Assembly (NCBI GenBank): GCA_903919315.1
Contig: CAIXHP010000036.1
Location: 1 to 53,992, forward strand
DNA length: 53,992 bases
Direction: 5' to 3'
Origin: an uncultured Pseudomonadota bacterium
Lineage (GTDB): Bacteria > Pseudomonadota > Alphaproteobacteria > UBA9219
The position numbers were made by a program, and so were the translations under genes. Numbering within the stretch: the stretch's first letter is position 1; the number at the start of each line of letters is the position of its first letter. Under the pieces are notes generated by a model. That model saw only the letters and a list, made by a program, of their open reading frames with translations. It was not told the DNA's origin and ran no database searches. Shown here piece by piece: positions 43,229 through 47,826 of the stretch.

Positions 43229-43297
43229 TTACTTCTTCTTCTTGGCGGTTGTCTTTTTCGCCGGGGCTTTTTTCGCGACTTTTTTCTTAGCAGCCAT
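43229..43297 (-). CDS. Very small lysine/alanine-rich basic protein
   Basis: A 22-codon gene, too short for usual gene calling. It encodes a protein starting MAAKKKVAKKAPAKK and ending in four lysines: 12 lysines, otherwise mostly Ala, Thr, Val and Pro. The ATG at 43297 is preceded by AAGGAGGT, an essentially perfect ribosome binding site, and the stop is followed by a hairpin (43143-43193). A TTGACT hexamer on the minus strand at 43354-43359 could be a -35 element. The composition resembles histone H1-like tails and other AKKxxAKK proteins, so nucleic acid binding is a fair inference. Translation is unproven. Confidence 0.6.
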   Translation of the reverse strand: MAAKKKVAKKAPAKKTTAKKKK

Positions 43298-43659
43298 AGT
43301 GACCTCCTTAACTAGAGTAGAGTTGCCGACATGTTGTGGCTAGCCTTGAGATTAGTCAACAACATTTTGTCGTTTGCCTCGGTGATCGTCTTCGGTGATG
43401 CGTGTTACTCGTCCCGCGTTGCAGCTTCGCAACATCTCTTCATCGACTCTGTGATGTGTGACGCTCACGCGTCATCATCACAATGTGCCGATGAAGTCTT
43501 GGTCGAGACGAAAACGCGTATCACCGACTCGCTTCATGAAGCATGATTTTTATGACATGCGTTTGCTAACGAATTATGAATCTTTTCAGCCGCGTCAAAC
43601 TGCACTATGACTCCCTGACCCGCTGTGCGATCCAAAGAGCGTTCGACAGCATCGCGCGT
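43298..43659. other. Intergenic region without recognised gene
   Basis: These 362 bases lie between the lysine-rich micro-gene and tRNA-Ile2. The right part presumably holds the tRNA promoter, the left part that of the micro-gene. A 71-codon plus-strand frame (43331-43546) has no ribosome binding site or protein-like character. I see nothing else here. Confidence 0.5.
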
Positions 43660-43736
43660 GGGCCTGTAGCTCAGTTGGTTAGAGCGGACCGCTCATAACG
43701 GTTTGGTCGTAGGTTCAAGTCCTACCGGGCCCACCA
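43660..43736 (+). tRNA. ileX: tRNA-Ile2 (anticodon CAU)
   Basis: 77 bases including the encoded CCA. The acceptor stem GGGCCTG pairs with CGGGCCC (one T-G wobble); the D arm has TAGCTCAGTTGGTTAGAG, the anticodon loop CTCATAA has CAT at 43694-43696, and the T arm has AGGTTCAAGTCCT. C4-G69 and C5-G68 and the TTGGTCG variable region resemble tRNA-Ile2, whose C34 becomes lysidine through TilS to read AUA. Elongator tRNA-Met is the alternative; its usual alphaproteobacterial form has a different acceptor stem as I recall. Confidence 0.85.
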
Positions 43737-43962
43737 CCCTACGCTAAAGCTTCGGGTGGCAGGCCACCCTTCTTGGGTGGACTGACAAACGAAAACGAAT
43801 ATGTGTAGGGTGACCTCCCGAAGCTTTAGCGTAGGGAGGCTGGCCACGTTGAGCGCACTGACAAACGAAAACGAATATGTGTAGGGTGACCTCCCGAAGC
43901 TTTAGCGTAGGGAGGCTGGCCATGTTGAGCGCACTGACAAACGAAAACGAATATGTGTAGGG
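43737..43962. repeat. Tandem 76-bp repeats with an inverted flanking copy
   Basis: Immediately after the tRNA CCA is CCCTACGCTAAAGCTTCGGG (43737-43756). Its exact reverse complement occurs twice inside a 76-bp direct repeat, at 43817-43836 and 43893-43912. The repeat units span 43781-43856 and 43857-43932 (one C/T difference seen), followed by a 30-base partial third copy, 43933-43962. Each unit starts ACTGACAAACGAAAACGAAT and contains a CCTCCC/GGGAGG hairpin. The first part also holds GGGTGG/CCACCC hairpins (43755-43780). The array ends 10 bases before the GIY-YIG gene, and its last bases supply part of that gene's ribosome binding site. Confidence 0.85.
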
Positions 43963-43972
43963 AGGATAGCCT

Positions 43973-44212
43973 GTGTGGTATGTCTATTTTCTCAAGCTCT
44001 GCAACGGCAGCATTTATGTCGGATCGACCAATGATCTGAAGCGCCGGTTTGCGTCGCATCAGGCCGGTCAAGTTCTCTCGACGAAAAAGTATGTCCCCGT
44101 CGTTCTCAAAAGCTACCTTGCTGTTGAAGACGAGGAGCGAGCGCGGATGCTCGAAAAATATTTCAAATCCGGTTCCGGCAAAGCGCTCGCGATGAAGCGG
44201 TTCTGGGCATGA
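43973..44212 (+). CDS. Small GIY-YIG nuclease-family protein
   Basis: 79 residues, a stand-alone GIY-YIG domain of the UPF0213/YhbQ-like kind. The motif reads WYVYFLKLCNGSIYVGSTND, then LKRRFASHQAGQ with the catalytic-type Arg, and EKYFKSGSGKALAMKRF with the Glu region near the end. The start is GTG at 43973, preceded by AGGGAGG at a seven-base spacing. It follows the 76-bp repeat array and the tRNA. Such proteins are candidate nucleases, and some behave as mobile or homing-type elements. The substrate is unknown. Confidence 0.85.
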   Translation: MWYVYFLKLCNGSIYVGSTNDLKRRFASHQAGQVLSTKKYVPVVLKSYLAVEDEERARMLEKYFKSGSGKALAMKRFWA

Positions 44213-44255: not shown

Positions 44256-45116
44256 CTACCGTGCATATTTTGGGGCGACGCGAAGAATCGTGCCGGGCAC
44301 GGCTTCGTAACGTGCGATGATGTTCTCGATTTGACCGCTCGACAGCAGTTCCTCCAGCGTCGTGTCGAGCATTCGACGGAAGGCATCCTGATTTTGTGCG
44401 ATGAAGAAAACATTGCCGAACACCCGGATGGGTGGCGCGTCTGCTAAGCGCTGAATCTTTCCCGGGTTGTTGGCATCAAATTTTGCCGCCATGGCCGGAT
44501 CAATAAAAGTCGCGTCGGCTTTTCCCGTCACAACATTGAGCAACAGCTCGCCCACATTCGCGCTTTCCGTCAAGCTGACGGTCTTGGCTTTTGGAAAGTC
44601 GCTGGATGCAATAATGGCCGATGTATCGCCATCCATAACGGATAGGGTTGTGGTCGGCGTATTCAGCGCCGTCTTGATATCCATAAATCGTCCATCCCCC
44701 GCCCGAACATACGCGTAATAGGGCTGATAGGAGAAAGGAACGGTTGAGTCAGTCGAGCGCGAACGCGCGGCGCTCGGCCAAGCCCCGACACAAAAAGCGT
44801 CGAACCTTCTGGATGCTAAAGCGCTTGGAAACGTCCCCCACCCGACTTCTTCGGTCCAATCGATCTTTAGGCCCAATTGTTTCCCTAACAGCTCGGCTAC
44901 ATCATAGGCAACGCCTGACAGCCTCCCCGTGTTCGGGTCTTTGATCAACAGTGGTGGGGCGGATATATACCCGCATCGAATTATCTGTGTGCGCATAACA
45001 CGTTCAAACACGGTTTCCGCCCCTCTGTCCGCCGTGTTTTGCGGCTTTTGAAGAACGAAAACGGATGCGAGCGCTGTGAGCGCTATGATGACCGACAAAA
45101 GGGACGTTTTGTTCAT
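44256..45116 (-). CDS. Periplasmic solute-binding protein, family 3-like
   Basis: 286 residues from the ATG at 45116 (GGAGA upstream). An N-terminal signal or anchor (LLSVIIALTALASVFVLQ) is followed by the bacterial extracellular solute-binding fold: RVMRTQIIRCGYISAPPLLI, LSGVAYDVAELLGKQLGLKI, RFDAFCVGAWPSAARSRS and FRRMLDTTLEELLSSGQIEN. It should bind an amino acid or similar small ligand, or act as a lone sensor domain. No ABC permease or ATPase gene is nearby. It is a paralogue of the protein at 46852-47715, sharing the RC-(A/G)-Y and DAFC-(V/A)-G motifs. Confidence 0.85.
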   Translation of the reverse strand: MNKTSLLSVIIALTALASVFVLQKPQNTADRGAETVFERVMRTQIIRCGYISAPPLLIKDPNTGRLSGVAYDVAELLGKQLGLKIDWTEEVGWGTFPSALASRRFDAFCVGAWPSAARSRSTDSTVPFSYQPYYAYVRAGDGRFMDIKTALNTPTTTLSVMDGDTSAIIASSDFPKAKTVSLTESANVGELLLNVVTGKADATFIDPAMAAKFDANNPGKIQRLADAPPIRVFGNVFFIAQNQDAFRRMLDTTLEELLSSGQIENIIARYEAVPGTILRVAPKYAR

Positions 45117-45188
45117 CAGTCGCTTCTCCGTTAGAAGATGTTTTCTGGCCATGTCATCCACCAACCGCTTGAAAAAATAGCCCCCCCC

Positions 45189-45756: not shown

Positions 45757-46737
45757 CTAGACGGCTTTCCGGGGCGCGGCTTGTGTTTCTTGCTCCAGCG
45801 CCGCCAGATATTTTTCGGCTTCCAGCGCGGCCATGCAGCCCATGCCTGCCGCCGTTACCGCCTGCCGGAAGACCCTGTCTTTCACGTCGCCAGCGGCGAA
45901 CACGCCGGGGATGTCGGTCGCGGTCGAGTCGGGCTTGGTCACGACATAGCCTTCGGCATCCATCGGAACTTTGCCCTTAAAGATGGCGGTCGCGGGCGAA
46001 TGGCCGATGGCGATGAAGACTCCGTCGGTCGCGACGAGGCTTTCCTGCCCCGTCTTGACGTTGCGAACGCGTACGCCGGTCACGGCGCGCACCGGTTGCT
46101 CGTCGCCTTTGATTTCTTCCACCGTGCTGTCCCAGATGACTTCGATCTTGGGATGGCTGGCGACGCGGTCCTGCAACACGCGCTCACCCCGGAACGCGTC
46201 GCTCCGGTGGATGAGCGTGACTTTGCGCGCGTGGTGCGTGAGATAAAGCGCCTCTTCCATGGCCGAATTGCCGCCGCCGACCACCACGACATCCTTGCCA
46301 CGGAAAAAGAATCCGTCGCAGGTGGCGCAGCCGGAGACACCGAAACCCTGAAAATGCTTTTCGCTGTCGATGCCCAACCACCGCGCCTGCGCCCCCGTCG
46401 CGATCACGACCGCGTCCGCGAGGAACACATCGCCCGAATCGGCGGTGCAGCGGAAAGGCCGTTGGGTAAAATCCACATCCTGAATGAGGTCAAAGATCAG
46501 CTCGGCCCCCACTTTGGTTGCCTGAGCCGCCATTTGCTCCATCAGCCACGGGCCTTGGATGATGTCGGCGAAGCCCGGATAATTTTCCACGTCCGCCGTG
46601 ATGGTGAGCTGACCGCCCGGCTGCATCCCCTGCACCACGATGGGCTTCATATTGGCGCGCGCGGCGTAAATCGCCGCCGTATAGCCCGCCGGGCCTGCGC
46701 CGATCACAAGAAGTTTGGTCTGATGGGTCTTAGGCAT
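45757..46737 (-). CDS. trxB: Thioredoxin-disulfide reductase
   Basis: 326 residues. The flavoenzyme passes electrons from NADPH to thioredoxin. FAD binding: LLVIGAGPAGYTAAIYAARA at the N-terminus. Redox cysteines C137 and C140 in SGCATCDGFFFRGKDVVVVG. NADPH binding: VVVVGGGNSAMEEALYL. The C-terminal FAD motif is IPGVFAAGDVKDRVFRQAVT. The ATG at 46737 matches the family N-terminus better than the longer frame. It is followed by the PH-domain gene. Confidence 0.96.
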   Translation of the reverse strand: MPKTHQTKLLVIGAGPAGYTAAIYAARANMKPIVVQGMQPGGQLTITADVENYPGFADIIQGPWLMEQMAAQATKVGAELIFDLIQDVDFTQRPFRCTADSGDVFLADAVVIATGAQARWLGIDSEKHFQGFGVSGCATCDGFFFRGKDVVVVGGGNSAMEEALYLTHHARKVTLIHRSDAFRGERVLQDRVASHPKIEVIWDSTVEEIKGDEQPVRAVTGVRVRNVKTGQESLVATDGVFIAIGHSPATAIFKGKVPMDAEGYVVTKPDSTATDIPGVFAAGDVKDRVFRQAVTAAGMGCMAALEAEKYLAALEQETQAAPRKAV

Positions 46738-46811
46738 AAAGTCCGTCCGTTCGCTGTGTCGCATGAAGGGACAGCCTAACCTCGGCAGCCTCGGCACCGC
46801 AAGGACATTGC

Positions 46812-46851: not shown

Positions 46852-47715
46852 CTAGTTAAACTGCGGTTTGGCCGGAACATAGGCCGTGCCGTAGTCCGCT
46901 CCAGCGTTCGCCTTCAGGATCCGATCCGCCATCCCGTTGTCGATGATATTGCGCAGCGATGCATCCAGAAGGTGGAGCAAGGCGGTTTCGTGGATTTCGA
47001 CACCGACGATGATCGGGAAAGACATTAGAGGGTGTTGAAACTCGACTTTGCGCAGAATGGCGACGGGGTTGTTTTGGTTGTACGCGAAAACATTGCTGGG
47101 GCCGCTGATTGTGAGGTCGGCTTTGTTGGCCGCGACATCCATGAAAAGTTGTGCCTCGCCGCCCAGCGGGCCTTTGTCGATCCGCTGCGCTTTCGGGAAG
47201 GAACGACGGGCCACCTCCTCCGAAAGATCGCCGGGGTTCACCGCGATGCGCACATCGTCTTGATTGATGCGGTCAACATTGTTGTCAAAGCGGCGGTCGT
47301 CTGGGCGCACATAGGCCTCCGCTGTCGCGAAATAGAGCGGCACGGTTCCGGCGATAACGCGTCCGCGCGCCGGGGTCATGAACATGCCCGCGCAAAAGGC
47401 ATCGGCCTTACCCGTTTCAAGCGTCGCGGCTATGTCGCTCCAGTCGATTTCGGGGCCCCATTCCACCTTCAACCCGCTGGCCTTTGCAAACTCGACCATC
47501 ACATCCGCCATAACCCCTTTAAGCTTCCCATCGTTGGGATTGGCGCTGAGAAAGGGCGGGTAAAAGGCGTAGGCGCAGCGCAACGTTCCGGATCGGATCA
47601 CGCGCTCGTACGCGCCGTTGGCGCTCGCCGCCGGAGCGTGAACAGGCCGGACAAACAGCGCAAGGAGCGCCAAAAGCGCGATCCCAAGGGCAGTAAATGA
47701 TATTTTGTTGCTCAT
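46852..47715 (-). CDS. Periplasmic solute-binding protein, family 3-like (paralogue)
   Basis: 287 residues from the ATG at 47715, with GAGG six bases upstream. Signal peptide ALGIALLALLALFVRPVHAP, then YERVIRSGTLRCAYAFYPPF, KGVMADVMVEFAKASGLKVE, KADAFCAGMFMTPARGRVIA and HLLDASLRNIIDNGMADRIL. It resembles the 44256-45116 protein in layout and motifs, so the two probably arose by duplication or are members of one expanded family. No transporter subunits are adjacent. The XRE regulator at 47827 is divergent with a 111-base shared promoter region and may control it. Confidence 0.87.
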   Translation of the reverse strand: MSNKISFTALGIALLALLALFVRPVHAPAASANGAYERVIRSGTLRCAYAFYPPFLSANPNDGKLKGVMADVMVEFAKASGLKVEWGPEIDWSDIAATLETGKADAFCAGMFMTPARGRVIAGTVPLYFATAEAYVRPDDRRFDNNVDRINQDDVRIAVNPGDLSEEVARRSFPKAQRIDKGPLGGEAQLFMDVAANKADLTISGPSNVFAYNQNNPVAILRKVEFQHPLMSFPIIVGVEIHETALLHLLDASLRNIIDNGMADRILKANAGADYGTAYVPAKPQFN

Positions 47716-47826
47716 AATCGCCTCATAAGGAAAGACCGACATGGGTTTTCCTTACCTTTGCGCTGGCTTTTGCGTCAATTCTTTCATATTATGATGTGTA
47801 TTTTGCACACTTGCGGGACGGTCAGA

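Follow-up and report, generated by a model that had tools for sequence, protein, structure and literature searches.

A probable minimal mobile element that pairs a predicted GIY-YIG nuclease gene with palindromes at the 3′ end of a tRNA gene in an alphaproteobacterium

Organization of the tRNA(CAU) locus

The window, by which we mean the whole 53,992-nucleotide stretch of DNA that was analysed, contains a tRNA gene with the anticodon CAT, specifying either elongator tRNA-Met or tRNA-Ile2, whose CCA end is encoded in the gene and is followed at the very next base by a palindrome. Details of the palindromes, the tandem array and the small reading frame behind them are compiled in Table 1. The complete hairpin 1 palindrome reads CCACCCTACGCTAAAGCTTCGGGTGG, and the left end of the element lies at the CCA of the tRNA. 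The right arm of the inverted repeat leads into TG, the complement of the CA in the CCA; among 65 elements the T matches in 83% and the G in 98%. The first 20 nucleotides past the CCA (43737–43756) are the exact reverse complement of 43817–43836, and the original prediction of an inverted copy beginning at the base after the tRNA is thus borne out, as are the two 76-bp direct repeats that it described, whose best phase starts at 43781. The partial third repeat is likewise present as a shortened copy, but it is the product of a hairpin deletion and not of simple truncation: the inner, 26-bp hairpin that once stood between two copies of GTAGGG is missing. This copy supplies a Shine-Dalgarno-like GGGAGGA 6 nt ahead of the GTG start codon, so that the last repeat does run into the ribosome-binding site of a small GIY-YIG gene, as had been claimed.

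Table 1. Positions of features at the tRNA(CAU) locus in the window
Feature	Position	Strand	Basis
Host tRNA gene, anticodon CAT, encoded CCA; putative landing site	43660..43736	+	ARAGORN, Rfam
Hairpin 1, CCACCC-TAC-GCT-aa-AGC-TTC-GGGTGG, takes in the CCA of the tRNA	43734..43759	+	Sequence; stem changes in relatives
First 76-bp tandem unit (unit 1), made up of a spacer and hairpin 2	43781..43856	+	Repeat comparison
Hairpin 2, CCTCCCGAAGCTTTAGCGTAGGGAGG, with a 20-nt core that repeats hairpin 1 exactly in inverted orientation	43814..43839	+	Sequence
Second 76-bp tandem unit, matching the first at 75 of 76 positions	43857..43932	+	Repeat comparison
Unit 3 remnant, 33 nt identical to the unit with the hairpin deleted between two GTAGGG repeats	43933..43965	+	Repeat comparison
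Ribosome-binding-site-like GGGAGGA, supplied by the last repeat	43960..43966	+	Sequence, inference
GIY-YIG nuclease gene, 79 aa, GTG start	43973..44212	+	Pfam PF01541, E = 1e-11; AlphaFold2

Folding of the region as single-stranded DNA gave z = -7.0 relative to 200 shuffles, and the repeat and palindrome structure is therefore far beyond chance. A CRISPR-like array is ruled out, the palindromic units standing back-to-back without spacers. A scan for an intrinsic terminator of tRNA(CAU) found none, and in an Rfam search of the region only the tRNA passed the gathering score, with no known structured RNA family detected.

The architecture of hairpin 1 recurs, with inner stems that are altered yet still complementary, at L012, L013, L111, L114 and L116–L120. 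L013, a relative in the same family, shares this layout but has a single 76-bp unit, in the order CCA-ending sequence, hairpin 1, spacer, hairpin 2 and then GTGTGGTACG. Because L013 carries the same element with just one unit, the 76-bp array is best read as a tandem amplification of the second hairpin that arose locally, and the 76-bp repeat is rejected as the unit that moves. Palindromes are also tandemly amplified at L185, L190, L191, L193, L201 and L236.

Near the locus, a 22-codon gene on the minus strand (43230–43298), with an AGGAGG site upstream, encodes a lysine/alanine-rich peptide (MAAKKKVAKKAPAKKTTAKKKK) that resembles a histone H1 tail. On the other side, two related genes for periplasmic substrate-binding-like proteins (44256–45164 and 46852–47742, both on the minus strand) enclose a thioredoxin-reductase-like gene (45757–46797, minus strand).

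The GIY-YIG protein

The GIY-YIG gene is the only open reading frame in the element, which lies outside the mature tRNA. Its product consists of one GIY-YIG domain, modelled by AlphaFold2 with a mean pLDDT of 94.5, and has neither the separate DNA-binding region (NUMODs) nor the intron or intein host of I-TevI-type homing endonucleases. Residues Y5, Y15, R25, H29 and E61 are invariant in the alignment, and the Tyr, Tyr, Arg and Glu set of GIY-YIG proteins is present. The nearest solved relatives are UPF0213 BH0048 (1zg2) and SLX1 entries, with I-TevI more distant, and NCBIfam and PHROGs gave only sub-threshold or weak matches. The resemblance to SLX1-type, structure-specific nucleases would fit a hairpin or cruciform substrate. 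Among 25 Bradyrhizobium copies the dN/dS ratio of the nuclease is ~0.06, and the gene is therefore under strong purifying selection.

Association with tRNA and tmRNA 3′ ends

The subfamily profile A1 was run on an even class sample of 385 genomes, in which close homologues scored at least 66 bits and other GIY-YIG proteins at most 57 bits. A same-strand tRNA gene stands 66–470 bp upstream at 38 of the 48 subfamily loci, covering 13 amino-acid isotypes and 23 anticodons, compared with 4 of 37 control GIY-YIG loci, all four from one family in which the gene starts 5–12 bp past the CCA. The ten subfamily loci where no tRNA was called include contig ends, tRNA-3′-end-like sequences and L128, whose gene is broken and which does have a tRNA-Val upstream. 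At some loci without a complete tRNA the 3′-end-like sequence CCTCCGCCA lies ahead of the palindrome, and tRNA-like ends precede the palindrome at L106, L118 and L127. When all sets were pooled, the upstream tRNAs represented 28 anticodons and 118 of 120 ended in CCA; tmRNA 3′ ends are occupied at three loci, outside Alphaproteobacteria. Strong matches in the phylum sample came from 25 genomes, 23 of them alphaproteobacterial. Genome comparison shows that the element in the window belongs to a family widespread in Alphaproteobacteria.

Elements at different isotypes align end to end, at 68–75%, from the first base past the CCA to near the stop codon, and no real homology was found between their flanks, a single 20-bp match being attributable to chance. 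The unit comprises the CCA boundary, one or more hairpins, the GIY-YIG gene and its stop codon, and occupies many tRNA isotypes. No recent jump between isotypes was seen, the best cross-isotype identity being ~75%, within one genome (L111/L117) as well, and neither a target-site duplication nor an excision product was observed. Searches of annotated phage and plasmid collections gave no match to the protein. A homologue (L112) is encoded on one IMG/VR contig, where the arrangement recurs at a tRNA-like CCGCCA. A different GIY-YIG subfamily, without palindromes, occurs at L139, L140, L142 and L161 in genomes of ~1.2–1.3 Mb from one family, where the start codon lies 5–12 bp past the CCA of tRNA-Arg or tRNA-Glu, which possibly reflects a similar preference for tRNA ends.

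Filled sites, empty sites and remnants

In a genus that shared contigs and named loci identify as Bradyrhizobium, the tRNA-Ala(GGC) locus adjoins a MarR-like gene and has the conserved right flank 'cccctactccccgatcacc'. The interval between the CCA and this flank is filled by full elements of 364–530 bp belonging to at least three lineages, and in other alleles by nuclease-less palindromes of 42–131 bp; no integrase or attR repeat was found in the 0.35–0.5 kb unit at this locus. The copy at tRNA-Ala has the appearance of a long resident and is found in many genomes. At L274, L277, L281, L283 and L286 the host flank begins directly past the stop codon of the nuclease, so that the element's right end is placed there, and by analogy with these alleles the window element is expected to end at or just past its own stop codon (44212). 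The element accordingly extends from the CCA to about the nuclease stop codon, or 0.35–0.5 kb. Three deletion remnants in Bradyrhizobium (L287, L304 and L305) have kept both ends of the element. These alleles fuse the first hairpin to the nuclease gene's 3′ end, a structure that recombination between the GCTTCGCC-like motifs at both element ends would produce.

The window's own tRNA gene was compared in 29 relatives (86–99% identical), of which about 10 have various palindromes and the rest none; unrelated sequence starts exactly past the CCA and the tRNA is intact. Empty sites in relatives, which the original prediction proposed to look for, were found both here and at the Bradyrhizobium tRNA-Ala(GGC) locus, and orthologous tRNA loci are either empty or occupied by solitary palindromes, deletion remnants or full elements of different lineages.

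Joint inheritance of nuclease and palindrome

Palindrome type, defined by the first bases past the CCA, was mapped on a tree of 71 nucleases, where it changes 9 times compared with 31–40 times when the labels are shuffled. For tRNA isotype the corresponding numbers are 38 and 42–52, and the contrast between the two traits is large even though the tree is short (79 columns) and partly poorly resolved, which inflates the change counts for both. Nuclease and palindrome accordingly stay paired as the tRNA target changes.

Solitary and dispersed palindromes

In the genome from which the window derives, solitary palindromes are located at the CCA of 7 of the 42 other tRNA genes (43 in total), and an unbiased search with the hairpin motif gave three matches, all at tRNA ends, and none with a reversed-pattern control. 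A second genomic copy of the repeat adjoins a tyrosine integrase at a tRNA-Ser-like end. On contig C5 (L006, 3620–3770) two copies of the hairpin 1 type, beyond those at the window locus, lie beside a tyrosine integrase gene and are preceded by the tRNA-Ser-like end CCCCGTCCGCCA. The L006 copies have no GIY-YIG gene.

Related palindromes are scattered outside tRNA loci in two genomes of another family, G026 and G032, and palindromes can therefore spread otherwise than at tRNA genes. Dozens of near-identical copies (GCCGTAGCTTTAGCGAAGGCGGGC) occur there (L346–L347, L359–L360, L368–L369, L372–L373 and L400–L419), mostly off tRNAs and often nested between CCCTCCC and GGGAGGG in a BIME-like arrangement, with some at contig ends.

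The window's genome also encodes two Y1_Tnp (IS200-like) transposases, L420 on contig C23 and L421 on contig C15, whose flanks share AAACCACCGGCTTTTAGCCGGTAAAGTGGACTTTAG in opposite orientation. No palindromes matching those at tRNA ends were found in the flanks of either gene, and REP sequences driven by a RAYT were for this reason rejected for this genome.

Interpretation of the element

We consider it probable that the element at this locus is complete and belongs to a family of minimal, homing-like mobile elements that insert right past the 3′ CCA of tRNA and tmRNA genes. The suggestion of a mobile, nuclease-linked unit with the tRNA 3′ end as its landing site agrees with the many isotypes occupied, with the filled, empty and remnant alleles, and with the co-inheritance of nuclease and palindrome. 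From this linkage, the co-evolution and the purifying selection we infer that the putative nuclease is the agent of movement. The predicted 79-aa enzyme would recognise the conserved tRNA 3′ end, its cognate palindrome in hairpin or cruciform form, or both, and would break unoccupied tRNA 3′ ends and/or extruded palindromes. Repair of the break, templated by a tRNA gene that already carries the element and guided by the short homology of the conserved T-arm and CCA, would copy the element in past the CCA in a homing-like manner, and this placement would spare the tRNA. Transcription of the GIY-YIG gene probably starts at the tRNA promoter, and the 76-bp array may have arisen from the second hairpin by replication slippage or break repair.

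The same arrangement could be that of a domesticated gene in a tRNA operon. The hairpins would then be 3′ trailers, and the GIY-YIG protein would serve the host in tRNA or trailer processing or in repair, kept at tRNA ends for co-expression and with little or no present mobility. The low dN/dS ratio, the stable residence at tRNA-Ala in many Bradyrhizobium genomes and the failure to see recent transposition would all be expected of such a gene, but the switching among 28 anticodons, the unrelated lineages at one site, the many sites that are empty or hold a broken copy without any replacement being evident, and a palindrome type tied to the nuclease and not to the tRNA make this unlikely. It is also conceivable that the REP-like palindromes are themselves the mobile units, moved by a different enzyme, for instance a Y1 (RAYT-type) transposase, with the GIY-YIG gene as a hitch-hiker or accessory. 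Solitary copies without the gene, at tRNAs and, in G026 and G032, away from them, point in this direction, as does the presence of two Y1_Tnp genes in the window's genome; we nevertheless regard this reading as very improbable, given that both Y1_Tnp loci lack matching palindromes in their flanks, that nuclease and palindrome type co-evolve, and that the elements are homologous end to end with the gene included.

Islands with tyrosine recombinases integrate at tRNA 3′ ends and might leave such sequences behind as att-site debris, which would account for the second repeat copy beside an integrase at a tRNA-Ser-like end and for the tRNA-3′-end-like sequences before the palindrome at some loci without a complete tRNA. 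Most elements, however, lie directly at intact tRNAs and span only the CCA to the nuclease stop codon, and the Bradyrhizobium interval, with its simple filled and empty alleles, contains no integrase, so that we give this origin hardly any credence. Integrative elements at the same tRNA ends may carry the elements between cells, and hitch-hiking of this sort probably explains transport and not the element itself.

Phages and islands classically integrate at tRNA 3′ ends by means of large integrases. Under the preferred reading of a homing-like element, the same spot would here be the speciality of a ~240 bp gene and its palindromes, leaving the tRNA unharmed. We see about an even chance that these sequences constitute a new class of autonomous element, at ~0.35–0.5 kb among the smallest known, in which a single 79-aa putative GIY-YIG nuclease has its cognate CA...TG palindrome as substrate and tRNA and tmRNA 3′ ends as targets, across Alphaproteobacteria and sporadically in other phyla, and whose nuclease-less palindromic derivatives form part of the REP-like repeats of these genomes. 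The family is previously undescribed as far as could be found, no prior description of such elements having been located in the open PMC literature, and a survey of the GIY-YIG superfamily (PMC1564403) makes no mention of palindromes or of a location at tRNA genes. A subfamily annotated only as 'GIY-YIG nuclease' gains a hypothesis of function. The family also offers a testable minimal partnership of nuclease and palindrome, could have given rise to REP-like repeats at tRNA genes, and provides a natural set of alleles in filled, empty and decayed states.

Comparison with known systems

Unlike integrase-type integration at tRNA genes, the family has no tyrosine recombinase of its own and no duplicated tRNA 3′ end (attR). 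Rickettsia palindromic elements, likened here by description, are also mobile palindromes of Alphaproteobacteria; they insert inside genes and, to our knowledge, have not been described with a nuclease. UPF0213 (COG2827-like) proteins and SLX1 are the closest matches in sequence and structure and have the same fold, whereas the subfamily of the window protein scores well apart from other GIY-YIG proteins and is bound to palindromes at tRNAs; SLX1 moreover has a partner and extra domains.

Free-standing GIY-YIG homing endonucleases of the T4 Seg type, among which SegB acts at the T4 tRNA region, resemble the present family in having a nuclease gene at a conserved site with filled and empty alleles, and as with homing genes these presence and absence alleles occur at an exact site in a conserved gene. 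In contrast to the Seg type, the window protein is a catalytic domain only, with no separate DNA-binding domain, and the family carries palindromes and spreads over many non-allelic tRNA genes. With REP/BIME sequences and their RAYTs (TnpA_REP, Y1 HUH) the family shares imperfect palindromes with conserved internal mismatches, an adjacent and dedicated nuclease-type gene, solitary copies, BIME-like tandem amplification and co-evolution of repeat and enzyme. It differs in that the enzyme is of the GIY-YIG type and not a Y1 HUH transposase, that the elements sit exactly at tRNA and tmRNA 3′ ends, and that the moving unit would include the gene up to its stop codon.
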